A DNA stretch of 35,859 nt. Origin: a virus. The notes under the pieces are model-generated. The model was not told the origin of the DNA, did not search any database, and saw only the letters and a list, made by a program, of their open reading frames with translations. Location: positions 1 through 35,859 of IMG/VR virus record IMGVR_UViG_3300034106_002112. One strand, written 5' to 3'. Below are positions 11,388-28,963 of the stretch, one piece after another. The position numbers were made by a program, and so were the translations under genes. How positions within the stretch are numbered: position 1 is the first letter of the stretch; each line of letters opens with the position of its first letter.

Positions 11388-11656
11388 CAGAAGGGAATTT
11401 CAGAATCGTCAAGCGGTGGAGCGGACTTTGCAGGCGCTTCTTCCTTCTTCTTGTACGAGTCGTAAGCCAGAGAGATGAAGTCACCGTACTGGCCCGAGCG
11501 GTTCCACCCGCTGAGTTTGATGGTGATCTCATCGCCCTGCTCCTCAAGGAGTTGCTTGACGAGCGACCGCTCAAGGGTGATGGACCCCTTATGGTCAGGC
11601 TGTTTGTCCTTCTTGTACTGGTTGGGCGACAGACGCCCGCTGTTGGAATAACTCAT
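11387..11656 (-). CDS. Small SSB-like protein with acidic tail
   Basis: An 89-residue protein starting in an ATGA overlap with the annealase gene. The body (SGRLSPNQYKKDKQPDHKGS, then ITIKLSGWNRSGQYGDFISLAY) resembles short OB-fold proteins of phages, with alternating strands and a trailing linker of Ala, Pro and Lys. The last residues are DDSEIPF, close to the DDDIPF tip that bacterial SSB uses to bind partners. With the annealase immediately upstream, a single-strand binding role is likely. The short length is below classical SSB, so a divergent family is possible. Confidence 0.6.
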   Translation of the reverse strand: MSYSNSGRLSPNQYKKDKQPDHKGSITLERSLVKQLLEEQGDEITIKLSGWNRSGQYGDFISLAYDSYKKKEEAPAKSAPPLDDSEIPF

Positions 11657-12324
11657 GCGAACTTCTCCTTCTTGGCTTTGAACACGGACATCAGGTCATC
11701 ATAGTCAGACTTACTCGCGGTCTTGAGTTTGTCGAACTGAGCGCGGTTGACTTGGAAGATCTGCATGACATCGGCCTTGGACGTGGTTTCGTCCAGCAGT
11801 TTGGCTGTAGCCACGCAGACATCGCTGACCCACTCCGGCCCTTCGTTAGCCTTGACAGTCCAGTCCCGCTGTTGGGGTTTGGGCTCGACCTTGGGAGCGG
11901 GCTTTGCGGCAGGCTTAGGCGCGGGCTTTGCCTCTTCATCTTCACCGTCTGGCAGGTCTTCACCTTTGTAGACGTACAGACCGAGGCCGTGCAACGCGAT
12001 AGCCTTGACCATGCACCGCATCATGGCGGTGTTCACGGCGAAGGCGTTCGGGTTGGTGATGGCCTCATTCTTGTGGTTCATCACGGGCAACTGGCAGGTC
12101 ATGGGCTTGCCGTTCATGGTGACCGTCACCCATACGAGCGCGGTCCCATTGACATCCATGTATGCCTGCTTGACTCCGTCACCACGGTCGAAGGAGTGAA
12201 CCTCAAACGTGGCGGCGGGATCAATCTTCAGAGCCTCGCCCCATGCGTGCGCCCATGAGAGATAGGACAGGTTGCCCTTCTTCTCAAGCAGGTCACTGAT
12301 GTTGACGGTTTGTAGATCGCTCAT
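11653..12324 (-). CDS. Sak-type single-strand annealing protein (DUF1071)
   Basis: A 223-residue protein. The N-terminal ~125 residues (NLSYLSWAHAWGEAL, YMDVNGTALVWVTVTMNGK, LPVMNHKNEAI, NTAMMRCMVKAIALHGLGLYVYKGEDL) match the Sak/DUF1071 group of phage annealing recombinases. A Lys/Pro/Ala-rich linker (about 135-155) leads to a helical C-terminal domain. Such proteins pair complementary single strands during phage recombination, usually with an exonuclease and an SSB, and both are present here. The start overlaps the upstream stop as ATGA. The family call is good; activity is inferred. Confidence 0.85.
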   Translation of the reverse strand: MSDLQTVNISDLLEKKGNLSYLSWAHAWGEALKIDPAATFEVHSFDRGDGVKQAYMDVNGTALVWVTVTMNGKPMTCQLPVMNHKNEAITNPNAFAVNTAMMRCMVKAIALHGLGLYVYKGEDLPDGEDEEAKPAPKPAAKPAPKVEPKPQQRDWTVKANEGPEWVSDVCVATAKLLDETTSKADVMQIFQVNRAQFDKLKTASKSDYDDLMSVFKAKKEKFA

Positions 12325-12599
12325 TGACGTGCCTTCCGTGTAGTCTTCTTAGCAGCGGGGCGACGACCACGGCGCTTGGCCGGGGTGCCATCCTTCCTCA
12401 AGCCATAGGGCGCATCGGTCTGCGGCAGATTCACAACCGGCAGCGTCAGCACTTCCACCTTGGGGGTATCAATGCTGATGGCCTGATCGATTTGCGGGCC
12501 GGTGAGTTTGGTCATCAGATCATTGACCTCCAACCACGGACGGCTGACGAGGGCGCTGACGATGGTCTTGATGTCTTCGTTACTCAGGTTGACTTGCAT
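12321..12599 (-). CDS. Small protein with basic tail, possibly DNA-binding
   Basis: A 92-residue protein. It begins MQVNLSNEDIKTIVSAL and ends in a strongly basic tail (AKRRGRRPAAKK). A Lys/Arg/Pro tail of this kind is common in nucleic-acid-binding proteins. AAGGAAAAAG lies just upstream of the start. It overlaps the nuclease gene by 20 bases and the annealase gene by 4, so it is translated within the recombination cassette. There is no recognised domain. Confidence 0.6.
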   Translation of the reverse strand: MQVNLSNEDIKTIVSALVSRPWLEVNDLMTKLTGPQIDQAISIDTPKVEVLTLPVVNLPQTDAPYGLRKDGTPAKRRGRRPAAKKTTRKARQ

Positions 12600-13491
12600 T
12601 TTCTTTTTCCTTCAGATAGGTCTGATACTGGTTACAAAACTGGCTCACTTGGCAGTACGACTTGCACCGCGTTCGTTCACCTTCTCTCACTTCCAAGATG
12701 AAACTCTCACCCTTCTTGGCCTTTGATTGCGCCTGGGCGAGGGCTTCATCCGCTGCCTCGCGTGTCTCATGGACACTCTTGGCTCGCACGTTGCCGTCCT
12801 TCTTGACGGCGTAACTGGTCTTCTTCTCCCACATGTCGTCTGCTGTGCACTCGGGCATATCTCCACCGGCATGGGTAGCGAAGTACGCTTCGTTGTGCAG
12901 GGCCAGACGGCTCTTGATGTAGGCTTCCTGCTCCTCATACGACCACAGAGGGATCTCTATGGTTGCGATGGGGGACGGAGGATAACCTTCCTTGGTCTGT
13001 GCTTCACGGGCCGACCAGTCGCGGATGATGGCGATGATCTGTGCGCCCTTGACGGGTACGCCCTTGGCCCTGGCAATGAGCCACGCATAGACGTTCAGTT
13101 GGTTGTGCCAATCCTGCTTCTCATTCATTACCGACCACGCGCCAGTGACCTTGTAGTCGGAGATGATGATGCCGTCCTCAAATACTTCCTGAAGATCCAT
13201 CTGACCCGACAGAGTCCAACCATCGAAGATGGCATACAGGCGTTGCTCAACGATGTGATGGTCGTCCTTGCCGTGCTCCAAGATGCCGTGCACGGCGGAG
13301 CCAAACAGTTGCCACACCATCTCAGACGCATCAGTCTCCAACTCCTCCCAGTGCTTGTGCTTCAACTGCACGATCCTGGGTGAGGTCAACAACTCAGTGG
13401 CTGAGATGTGTGACTCGCCCTTGCTGTAGGTCGGACGATGGATGACGTTGATGAACGTCTGAGGAAGGTTGAACTTGTTGGTCAGTTTCAT
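12580..13491 (-). CDS. PD-(D/E)XK nuclease, Cas4/RecB-like
   Basis: A 303-residue protein. Nuclease motifs seen are H68 (FGSAVHGILE), D99 in SGQMDL, D112-x-K114 in SDYK, and Q131-x3-Y135 (QLNVYAW), the layout of RecB/Cas4-family exonucleases. Four Cys follow the core: C215, then C276, C280 and C286 in CKSYCQVSQFC. They could hold an iron-sulfur cluster as in Cas4 and AddB, although the first Cys lies after rather than before the core. It probably resects DNA ends to feed the Sak-type annealase two genes downstream. It overlaps its neighbours by 4 and 20 bases. Confidence 0.8.
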   Translation of the reverse strand: MKLTNKFNLPQTFINVIHRPTYSKGESHISATELLTSPRIVQLKHKHWEELETDASEMVWQLFGSAVHGILEHGKDDHHIVEQRLYAIFDGWTLSGQMDLQEVFEDGIIISDYKVTGAWSVMNEKQDWHNQLNVYAWLIARAKGVPVKGAQIIAIIRDWSAREAQTKEGYPPSPIATIEIPLWSYEEQEAYIKSRLALHNEAYFATHAGGDMPECTADDMWEKKTSYAVKKDGNVRAKSVHETREAADEALAQAQSKAKKGESFILEVREGERTRCKSYCQVSQFCNQYQTYLKEKENASQPE

Positions 13492-13960: not shown

Positions 13961-15085
13961 TAAATGCCTGCCTTGCCAAACCTGAACGAGACATGCCGTG
14001 CCTCGCCTGCCTGTCCACTCCATGTTGCGCCTCTCCGTTCCACGCCCGGCCTTGCCTGCCTCGCCGTTCCATACCCGACCAAGCCCTGCCTTACCTGCCT
14101 AGCCTTGCCGTTCCTCGCTGCGCCACGCCTTGCGACACCTCGCCTGCCTTGCCTGACCATGCCTTGCCCAGCCTCGCCACGCCTGCCGTGCCGATCCTGA
14201 ACTTGCCAAGCCGGTCCTTTCGATGCCACGCCTGCCCCACCGCTCCATACCTAGACAAGCCCATCCTCGCCTGCCAGTCCGGTCCACACCGCACCATGCC
14301 TTGCCCAGCCTCGCCTCGCCTGCCTCTCCACGCCAGACCAATCCAAGACGCACCACGCTTGTCCTTGCCTGCCGTACCAAGCCCTGCCTCGCCGCACATT
14401 GCCGCGCCCTTCCATGCCTGCCATGCCTGACCTCGACCATCCTTGCCTGCCAGACCTGACCTAGCCCCGACTTACCCCGCAGAGCCATGCCTGCCATACC
14501 TTGCCTGACCTCGACCATCCTCGCCACACGTTGCCTTGCCTGCCCCGCCACGATAGGGAGATAAATGCCTGCCTTGCCTGCCCTCGCCACGCCTTGCGTT
14601 GCCTGCCACGCCCGACCTCTCCGTACCATTCCATGACACACCAAGCCTGCCTAGCCTGAACATACCGGGCCTCACCAGAACTCAACGTTCCAGTCGTTGC
14701 CTGCGTCGCCAGTCCCCGCCTCGCCATGCCAATCTCTTCCACGCCACGCCTGACCTGCCTTGCCTGTCCGGTTCGAGCCAAGCCCCGCCCCGACTTGCCT
14801 GCCTTGCCCTGCCTGTCCCGACCCCGCCTCACCAGGCCGTGCCGTGCCGGTCCCCGCCGTGCCTGCCTCACCGGTCCAAGCCCCGCCACACCGGGCCTTT
14901 CCATACCTGCGTTGCCGTACCCCGCCCAGCCGGGCCTTTCCAGACCAGATCACGCCTTTCCCGGCCGATCCTGGCCTGCCTTGCCCTACCTCGCCCCTCC
15001 TATCCGAACCGTGACAACCCATGCCTCGCCTGCCGTACCTCGCCGGGACAGACAGCGCCTATCCCGGCCTTTCCTTACCGGCCTT
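13961..15085. repeat. ~1.1-kb non-coding array with 5-nt period (NNNCC)n, phase resets by TGCC
   Basis: This stretch is built almost entirely of 5-base units ending in CC (mostly NNGCC) on the + strand, i.e. GGNNN on the - strand. The five-base phase is broken only by isolated 4-base units TGCC. In the first block these fall at 13969, 14008, 14057, 14096, 14145, 14184, 14233, 14272, 14321, 14370, 14419, 14448, 14492 and 14541. The spacings are 39 and 49 alternating four times, then mostly 49. The content of the units varies while the phase is kept. A 17-base start (TAAATGCCTGCCTTGCC) occurs at 13961 and again at 14562, marking a second, less regular block. Long Gly/Ala/Arg/Gln reading frames here are by-products of the period. 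The role is unknown. Confidence 0.9.
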
Positions 15086-15853: not shown

Positions 15854-15868
15854 TGGTAACGTTACCAC
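15853..15868. promoter_or_regulatory. GTGGTAACGTTACCAC operator candidate in the divergent control region
   Basis: A perfect 16-bp palindrome in the 142-base gap between the leftward operon and the rightward resolvase gene. It lies 25 bases upstream of the leftward -35 box and 17 bases upstream of the resolvase ATG, so a bound protein could affect both directions. Confidence 0.65.
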
Positions 15869-18744: not shown

Positions 18745-19349
18745 GCTTCACCTCCAATCCCGTGTGCGCGTTCGATGGCTCTGATGATCTTGATTCCCTT
18801 TTGTGAAACCGGGCCTGCCCCGCCGTTGCAGCCAAAGTGGTAGCGCAGCACTTCGTCCAACAGAATCTCCTCATCCGTCAGCGGCTTGCGCTGCGGTGGG
18901 TGGGTGTAGAGGGGTATCTTCCACTTCAGGCTTTGCGGAGGAAACTGAAACCGCATTGTTGTGTTCATCCTGATTGAACCGTATGGCGATTCCAGCCACG
19001 CCACCGGCTGCTCCGGCTGCTCCGGCTGCTCCCGCATCTCGTCCTCGGCCTTGATGCGTCCCTCTCGCAAGCCCAACTTGAACCCATCGTTCACGCCACG
19101 CCGGTACTCGGACATGGGCATGTCTGCAATGCGCTGCGTCACTTGAGGGGAGGGGGCAGACTGCCACCCCCCTTCTGGCTCCTCCTGACCAACTTGTAAG
19201 GATTCCTTACCAGTTGCCTGCTCCGGCTGCTCCAGCGCGGACTCAAGCGTGGCGATCAGATCGTTCAGTTGCACAGCGTCTATGTCGCGGCCACTACTCC
19301 ACTTGCCCAACGCCTCAAGCGCCTGCTGCGCTGCTGTTCGTAGGCTCAT
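18741..19349 (-). CDS. Hypothetical phage protein with Glu-Gln-Pro repeats
   Basis: A 202-residue protein from ATG 19349 (MSLRTAAQQALEALGKW), which overlaps the previous stop as ATGA. The N-terminal motif RTAAQQALEAL is common in unknown phage proteins, as I recall. The middle is low complexity: three tandem copies of a 9-base unit (CCGGCTGCT on +, 19004-19030) give EQPEQPEQP. The C-terminal ~50 residues contain LTDEEILLDEVLRYHFG and a short helix. The variable middle suggests slippage; the function is unknown. Confidence 0.6.
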   Translation of the reverse strand: MSLRTAAQQALEALGKWSSGRDIDAVQLNDLIATLESALEQPEQATGKESLQVGQEEPEGGWQSAPSPQVTQRIADMPMSEYRRGVNDGFKLGLREGRIKAEDEMREQPEQPEQPVAWLESPYGSIRMNTTMRFQFPPQSLKWKIPLYTHPPQRKPLTDEEILLDEVLRYHFGCNGGAGPVSQKGIKIIRAIERAHGIGGEA

Positions 19350-28513: not shown

Positions 28514-28529
28514 GTGGTAACGTTACCAC
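28514..28529. promoter_or_regulatory. GTGGTAACGTTACCAC palindrome upstream of the LexA-like gene (copy 1)
   Basis: A perfect 16-bp palindrome 81 bases upstream of the ATG at 28610. Paired with the copy at 28585, spaced 70 bases apart, it makes a two-site operator candidate for a regulator gene, possibly autoregulatory. Confidence 0.65.
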
Positions 28530-28609: not shown

Positions 28610-28963
28610 ATGGTTGAAGAAACGGGTGCTAAGTTGTTGATTTTGAAGGGAAAAGACGCGATTCGTCGGCCGACGGTGGTGGTTGGGGCGAAGGAGATGA
28701 GGCGTGTTTGGGGGGATAGGGGTGAGTTGGAGGTGGGTATGAGTCCGGCGCAGAGGGAGGTTTTTTTGGTGGTGGATGAGTGGTGGAAGAAGTATGGGTT
28801 TGCGCCTTCGTTGAGGGATATTGCGTATGTTCGGGGGAAGATGGGGTTGGGGAATACGAAGAAGATTGTTGATAGGTTGGTGGAGTTGGGTGCGTTGAAG
28901 AGGTTGGATGGCCGTCGGAGGTCTGTTCGGCCTGTGTATGTGAACTTTAAGAATCTGGAATGA
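28610..28963 (+). CDS. LexA-like winged-helix DNA-binding protein without peptidase
   Basis: A 117-residue protein. Residues 44-109 (MSPAQREVFLVVDEWWKKYG, FAPSLRDIA, VRGKMGLGNTKKIVDRLVELGAL, then RRRSVRP) match the N-terminal winged helix of LexA. The catalytic serine-lysine peptidase half is absent, so it cannot self-cleave. It probably binds the palindromes just upstream as a repressor; this is inferred. The DNA here is strikingly G/T-rich, unlike terS. The stop overlaps the TerL start as ATGA. N-terminal residues 1-43 are basic with no domain. Confidence 0.75.
   Translation: MVEETGAKLLILKGKDAIRRPTVVVGAKEMRRVWGDRGELEVGMSPAQREVFLVVDEWWKKYGFAPSLRDIAYVRGKMGLGNTKKIVDRLVELGALKRLDGRRRSVRPVYVNFKNLE

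Follow-up and report, generated by a model that had tools for sequence, protein, structure and literature searches.

A very likely VIPR locus in a virus genome, with guides closed by GGCA units and targets in the recombination genes of other phages

Viral Interference Programmable Repeat (VIPR) systems were presented in a preprint of April 2026 (PMC13142463), and according to its main text they consist of a phage-borne RAMP protein (Vipr), an accessory gene and vrRNAs built of alternating GGY and NN elements. In that account the NN letters pair with double-stranded DNA and one base per unit, mostly the codon wobble position, is skipped. The same text describes that Vipr-vrRNA complexes bind dsDNA and repress transcription, and that the accessory protein of Escherichia phage SUSP1 enhances protection; seven types are distinguished, with vap1-6 as published accessory genes.

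We analyzed a stretch of 35,859 nucleotides from a virus (IMG/VR record IMGVR_UViG_3300034106_002112, here called the window), in which a long array of GGNNN units lies between two genes of the same strand (Table 1). It is very likely that this locus is a VIPR system, composed of Vipr, a guide-RNA array and an accessory protein, which would block genes of rival phages by means of guides that skip 1 nt. Vipr homology, a RAMP fold, tandem GGY/NN units with variable NN letters and targets in competing elements were all found, and from our own analysis the reading is based on the relationship of genes and folds, the array grammar, the skip rule, in-frame targets, the lack of a self-match and the turnover of guides.

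Table 1. Features of the window around the array (positions are those of the window)
Feature	Position	Strand	Remarks
Sak single-strand annealing protein (PF06378)	11653..12324	-	context gene
PD-(D/E)XK exonuclease gene	12580..13491	-	same strand, downstream context
accessory gene in vap position, 151 aa	13488..13943	-	PHROG 15946
vrRNA array	13967..15083	-	about 24 guides built of GG(Y)NN units, with a 4-nt unit at the end of each guide
guide 20, GA-GT-AA-GT-GC-GA-AC-AA-TA	14100..14144	-	EVKVAETKY, gene directly upstream of Sak4 (PHROG 2480)
odd array segment lacking consecutive GG units, GGCATTTATCTCCCTATCGTGGCGG	14545..14569	-	25 nt
guide 0, AA-AA-CG-TA-GC-CT-CC-GA-AC	15035..15079	-	decodes to KNRYALP[DE]T of other phages' Sak4-like annealases
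vipr, RAMP-family guide-RNA-binding protein, 219 aa	15084..15743	-	PHROG 4652

The window shares with the type II system of SUSP1 a Vipr of the same PHROG, the GGY/NN units and the 1-nt skip, and, as far as the main text of PMC13142463 and the entry PDB 36pp describe it, also a two-gene phage locus with targets in competing elements. However, SUSP1 carries four separate vrRNAs of ~100 nt with structured tails, whereas the window has 24 tailless guides placed head to tail and separated solely by a 4-nt GGCA unit, which is not so in SUSP1. A structured 3' tail per guide was not found in the window array, nor was there any Rfam match, and this lack of tails counts against the VIPR reading. The accessory families differ as well, since vap1 of SUSP1 belongs to PHROG 5926. 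With separate tailed vrRNAs and another accessory family in type II, the window locus is not a type II VIPR. Judging from its mention in the main text, the architecture called 'staggered arrays with overlapping vrRNAs' (PMC13142463, fig. S18), a continuous GGY/NN array with phase shifts at intervals, is probably that of the window array. Class 1 CRISPR-Cas systems (Csm3/Cas7) have the RAMP fold of the RNA-binding subunit and the modular turnover of guides in common with this locus, but here the pairing is non-contiguous and the phage itself is the carrier; neither a repeat-spacer array nor Cas1 or Cas10 was seen. TIGR-Tas systems also have phage-associated tandem guide arrays, as here, with a different protein family and repeat plan.

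By homology, the gene upstream of the array encodes Vipr. The window protein falls into PHROG 4652 (E=7.4e-19), which PHROGs lists as of unknown function, and so does SUSP1 Vipr when its sequence is taken from the SUSP1 genome (E=1.4e-96). The sole convincing match of the family profile to a solved protein was chain D of PDB 36pp, 'SUSP1 Vipr protein', with E 6.5e-9 for a profile of 4 sequences and 3.8e-12 for one of 70. The AlphaFold2 model of the window Vipr (mean pLDDT 90) had as top PDB matches in Foldseek exclusively Csm3/Cas7-type RAMPs (Csm, Cmr and type VII subunits), with probabilities up to 1.00 and modest TM-scores of about 0.35-0.5, and the family alignment showed G178, G182, R187 and G199 as invariant residues, in keeping with a RAMP fold of RRM core and with its glycine-rich loop. 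Pfam and NCBIfam gave nothing useful for Vipr or the accessory protein of the window, and PADLOC had no match for either. The accessory protein gave a confident predicted model of alpha/beta type, which in the fold search had only weak, winged-helix-like and DNA-binding-like matches; on the basis of this model the protein may bind DNA. Matches of the accessory gene to TALE proteins, from a repeat-rich profile search, were weak, covered 29 residues and were not credited.

On the minus strand the array is a run of GGNNN units whose register is unbroken except at the 4-nt units. This bears out the strict 5-nt period with 4-nt phase breaks reported in the first-pass annotation. The lag-5 autocorrelation was 0.504 (z=14 against 500 dinucleotide shuffles), and at lags 39, 44, 49 and 88 z was 16, 15, 15 and 13 with the same shuffles, so that the check proposed there, autocorrelation against shuffled sequence, returned peaks at 5, 39, 49 and 88 far above the controls. 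The window contains 44 occurrences of (GGNNN)4GG, all of them on the minus strand and within the array, against an expectation of 0.24. Segmentation gave about 204 five-base and 24-26 four-base units. Every reset position given in the first-pass annotation was correct, and ten further resets lie at 14570, 14604, 14648, 14702, 14756, 14800, 14864, 14908, 14977 and 15031; the letters TGCC assigned to them are those of the plus strand, and the transcribed strand reads nearly always GGCA (CGCA at 14702 and 14908). The spacing of resets equals 5n+4, where n counts the units from one 4-nt unit to the next and ranges from 5 to 13 with mode 9. After the first eight it had been described as mostly 49 nt, and in fact it varies from 29 to 69 nt. 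Nor did the suggested higher-order repeat of 88 nt hold: with the unit letters shuffled and the geometry kept, the autocorrelation at 39, 44, 49, 88 and 98 was unchanged (z of 0.27, 0.04 and 0.09 between observed array and shuffles at 39, 49 and 88). There is thus no 88-nt sequence repeat, and the period is merely the alternation of guide lengths of 7 and 9 units, an alternation (9-7-9-7) that is not kept in the close relative L012.

GG is present in 172 of the 204 five-base units of the window array and strict GGY in only 135, which is a further point against the VIPR reading; clade-wide, unit positions 1 to 3 are G in 93%, G in 91% and C or T in 91%. Tandem Repeats Finder missed the array because the letters vary from unit to unit, and the early judgement that simple slippage would not account for it agrees with an array of guide RNAs. 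The first base of the array follows immediately on the vipr stop codon, and its last base is separated from the start codon of the accessory gene by 23 nt, which include an apparent ribosome-binding site of that gene. The odd segment inside the array is identical in L012, and its first letters are similar to those at the array's 3' end, GGCAGGCATTTA; as far as its letters suggest, it is possibly the join or scar left where two arrays were fused, or else it has a control function. That the array instead codes for a repetitive protein is hardly conceivable, even though frames are open through parts of it for up to 183 codons and genes have been annotated inside the homologous arrays of Donkeykong and UmaThurman. 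The three frames of the transcribed strand contain 7, 4 and 4 stops, in agreement with the non-coding assignment made from the start, any frame is broken by the mixture of 5-nt and 4-nt units, and the genes called in the two phages have no PHROG match.

For decoding, the resets were taken as guide ends and the NN letters were read by the published 1-nt-skip rule. Guide 0 was searched as a pattern with 1-nt skip and 17 fixed bases, the last base being omitted, and matched 32 IMG/VR contigs, near-duplicates among them. All 32 matches share one reading frame and fall on the KNRYALP[ED] codons of a single protein family, which by PHROGs is a Sak4-like ssDNA annealing protein (four members tested), and the skipped base is the wobble position throughout. 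All nine dinucleotides were matched in 11 of the 32 contigs, whereas the same dinucleotides in shuffled order matched no IMG/VR contig. Among phages fetched by Sak4 protein similarity, guide 20 matched exactly (18/18) at nine sites, all within the gene immediately upstream of Sak4. As guide 0 had been picked after a one-mismatch local match and guide 20 not beforehand, the weight lies on the contrast of 32 to 0 and on guide 20.

In a first pool of 226 loci with few target phages, skip 1 was only slightly above shuffles, and because of this weak signal target phages were fetched. In this target-phage pool 2 of the 21 testable window guides were exact at skip 1, a low number that also speaks against the VIPR reading, and at skips 0, 2 and 3, as well as in 40 shuffles, window guides of at least 7 units gave no exact match. 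Across the clade, leaving guide 0 aside, 17 guides were exact at skip 1, where shuffles averaged 0.4, and no guide was exact at skips 0 and 2. At skip 3 there were four exact matches, which were set aside because arrays had probably matched themselves (L248 and L084 are one contig). Scans gave no exact match for guides 7 and 16, and a scan of genome contigs gave 5 matches, with Sak4 in only 2, so single matches in large collections prove little. The NN composition fits codon positions 1-2 best among the six frames. Going by these matches, the NN letters are read with a 1-nt skip in alignment with the wobble position. No match between guide and target runs past the reset or is carried on by the following guide, which identifies the 4-nt unit as a delimiter. 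Two versions of an analysis of substitution rates by unit position are not counted as evidence: in the first unrelated guide pairs were mixed in, and in the second (Y changes of 23% vs 5-9% elsewhere) the pairs had been selected on NN similarity.

Alternatively, the array could be an element acting at the DNA level, through two-layer G-quadruplexes or as a protein-binding scaffold for recombination near the Sak and exonuclease genes, and the NNN letters would then not matter. A GG every 5 nt, leaving loops of 3 nt, and the recombination genes adjoining the array would suit such a role, but the decoded NN letters agree with codon positions 1-2 of particular genes much more often than shuffled ones do, and array and vipr gene occur together from phage to phage, and we consider this alternative very unlikely. 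G-quadruplexes are not needed to explain the array; the other early proposal, a protein that reads the GG spacing, was right, in that the RAMP protein Vipr holds the GGY positions by the published model.

Related arrays have targets at several sites of Sak4, in the gene upstream of it, in a serine integrase and in an SSB-like gene, all of the same phage lineage. VIPR as such is already known (April 2026). What is new here concerns how guides are delimited, which genes they target and how they turn over: the GGCA guide end, targets in Sak4 and its neighbours and CRISPR-like turnover between near-identical phages are absent from the main text of PMC13142463. The window adds independent, sequence-only support for the 2026 guide code from a phage lineage far from the characterised ones. 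It also supplies a concrete grammar, with GGCA as the guide end, and a list of targets drawn chiefly from genes that serve recombination and integration in rival temperate phages. A phage genome becomes readable, as a beginning, for which rivals it attacks. When some guides of two other arrays (L188, array at 2, vs L065 5285; L202 vs L146 4429) are decoded, they agree, apart from 1-2 mismatches, with the accessory gene (VEDVLDEAR) or the vipr gene of other VIPR phages, which suggests VIPR aimed against VIPR of other phages.

In the VIPR reading, the array would be transcribed with the neighbouring genes and the transcript would be cut into, or serve in some other way as, individual vrRNAs with about 5-13 GGYNN units and a GGCA end. 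Vipr subunits would coat the RNA so that the GG(Y) of each unit is held by protein and the two variable bases are exposed. Each such dinucleotide would pair with two bases of the DNA and leave one target base unread, on coding DNA the wobble position of the codon. The complex would then block expression of genes of a rival phage in the same cell, namely the Sak4-like annealase and its upstream neighbour, and the window phage would be spared by its own use of a different annealase, Sak. RNA expression, Vipr binding, DNA recognition and repression are taken from the work on relatives (PMC13142463), whereas RNA processing at GGCA, the effect on rivals and the role of the accessory protein are what we infer.

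Arrays beside homologs of both genes were found by blastn and tblastn in Mycobacterium and Gordonia phages and in Cyanophage Cy-LDV1. Among 94 IMG/VR loci fetched by the vipr gene, 92 have the array and the contigs of the other two end at the gene; the accessory gene adjoins vipr in 92 of the 94. Conversely, 120 IMG/VR stretches fetched by DNA pattern alone contained vipr in 100, the accessory gene in 90 and at least one of them in 108, as listed on the strand of the main array. An assembly artefact, envisaged earlier as a possible origin, is excluded, since at least 120 IMG/VR stretches and sequenced phages of Mycobacterium, Gordonia and cyanobacteria carry like arrays next to genes of this family. 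The array lies before, between or after the two genes depending on the locus and is therefore not the leader of either. In Cyanophage Cy-LDV1 a second, short GGNNN array follows the accessory gene (L009, 7430-7590). Annotated hypothetical proteins lie largely on VIPR arrays in Mycobacterium phage Donkeykong (gp48; L010, 5438-5824) and UmaThurman (gp40; L011, 5907-6230) and are probably not real genes.

In L012, whose Vipr is 98% identical to that of the window, 13 of the 24 guide segments are in common, mostly in the same order within blocks, and guides have been gained and lost one by one between the two relatives. RNA decoys of Cas proteins exist, and with Vipr being a RAMP the array RNA might be a passive sponge or scaffold for it, for example an anti-CRISPR decoy, and hold no guides. 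The exact in-frame skip-1 matches to competitor genes and the single gains and losses argue against such a sponge, which we regard as highly improbable. Returning to VIPR guides, we raise as a tentative and rather doubtful possibility that the arrays gain and lose whole guides in a CRISPR-like manner without a Cas1-like gene, perhaps by way of the adjacent Sak and exonuclease, and serve as an adaptive, heritable memory of rivals. If true, phages would record their rivals in the form of the first two codon positions of target genes. The source of new guides without an adaptation protein is now a testable question.

The annealase and nuclease setting noticed at first was correct. Sak of the window is the functional counterpart of the targeted Sak4 but belongs to another family, and no Sak4 homolog was found among the window ORFs, in a virus record that may be incomplete so that Sak4 elsewhere is possible. 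No window guide matches the window genome better than shuffled guides do. The absence of a self-match and the presence of Sak instead of Sak4 fit, at the level of sequence, a pattern of conflict between phages in which a phage attacks recombination genes of rivals which do the same task with another protein family.

Elsewhere in the window, the 12-bp palindrome GGTAACGTTACC occurs five times (5349, 15855, 21170, 28516 and 28586), three of them as GTGGTAACGTTACCAC. The copy at 15855 lies between the divergent vipr and RusA genes, and those at 28516 and 28586 precede terminase genes; the palindromes are candidate operator or modification sites. A short perfect tandem repeat, (CCGGCTGCT)3.2, is present at 19004-19032. 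Between 28501 and 29500, over the gene 28610-28963 and the start of the large terminase, the GC skew reaches +0.57 as a result of G/T-rich wobble usage, and it is possible that this region was recently imported.
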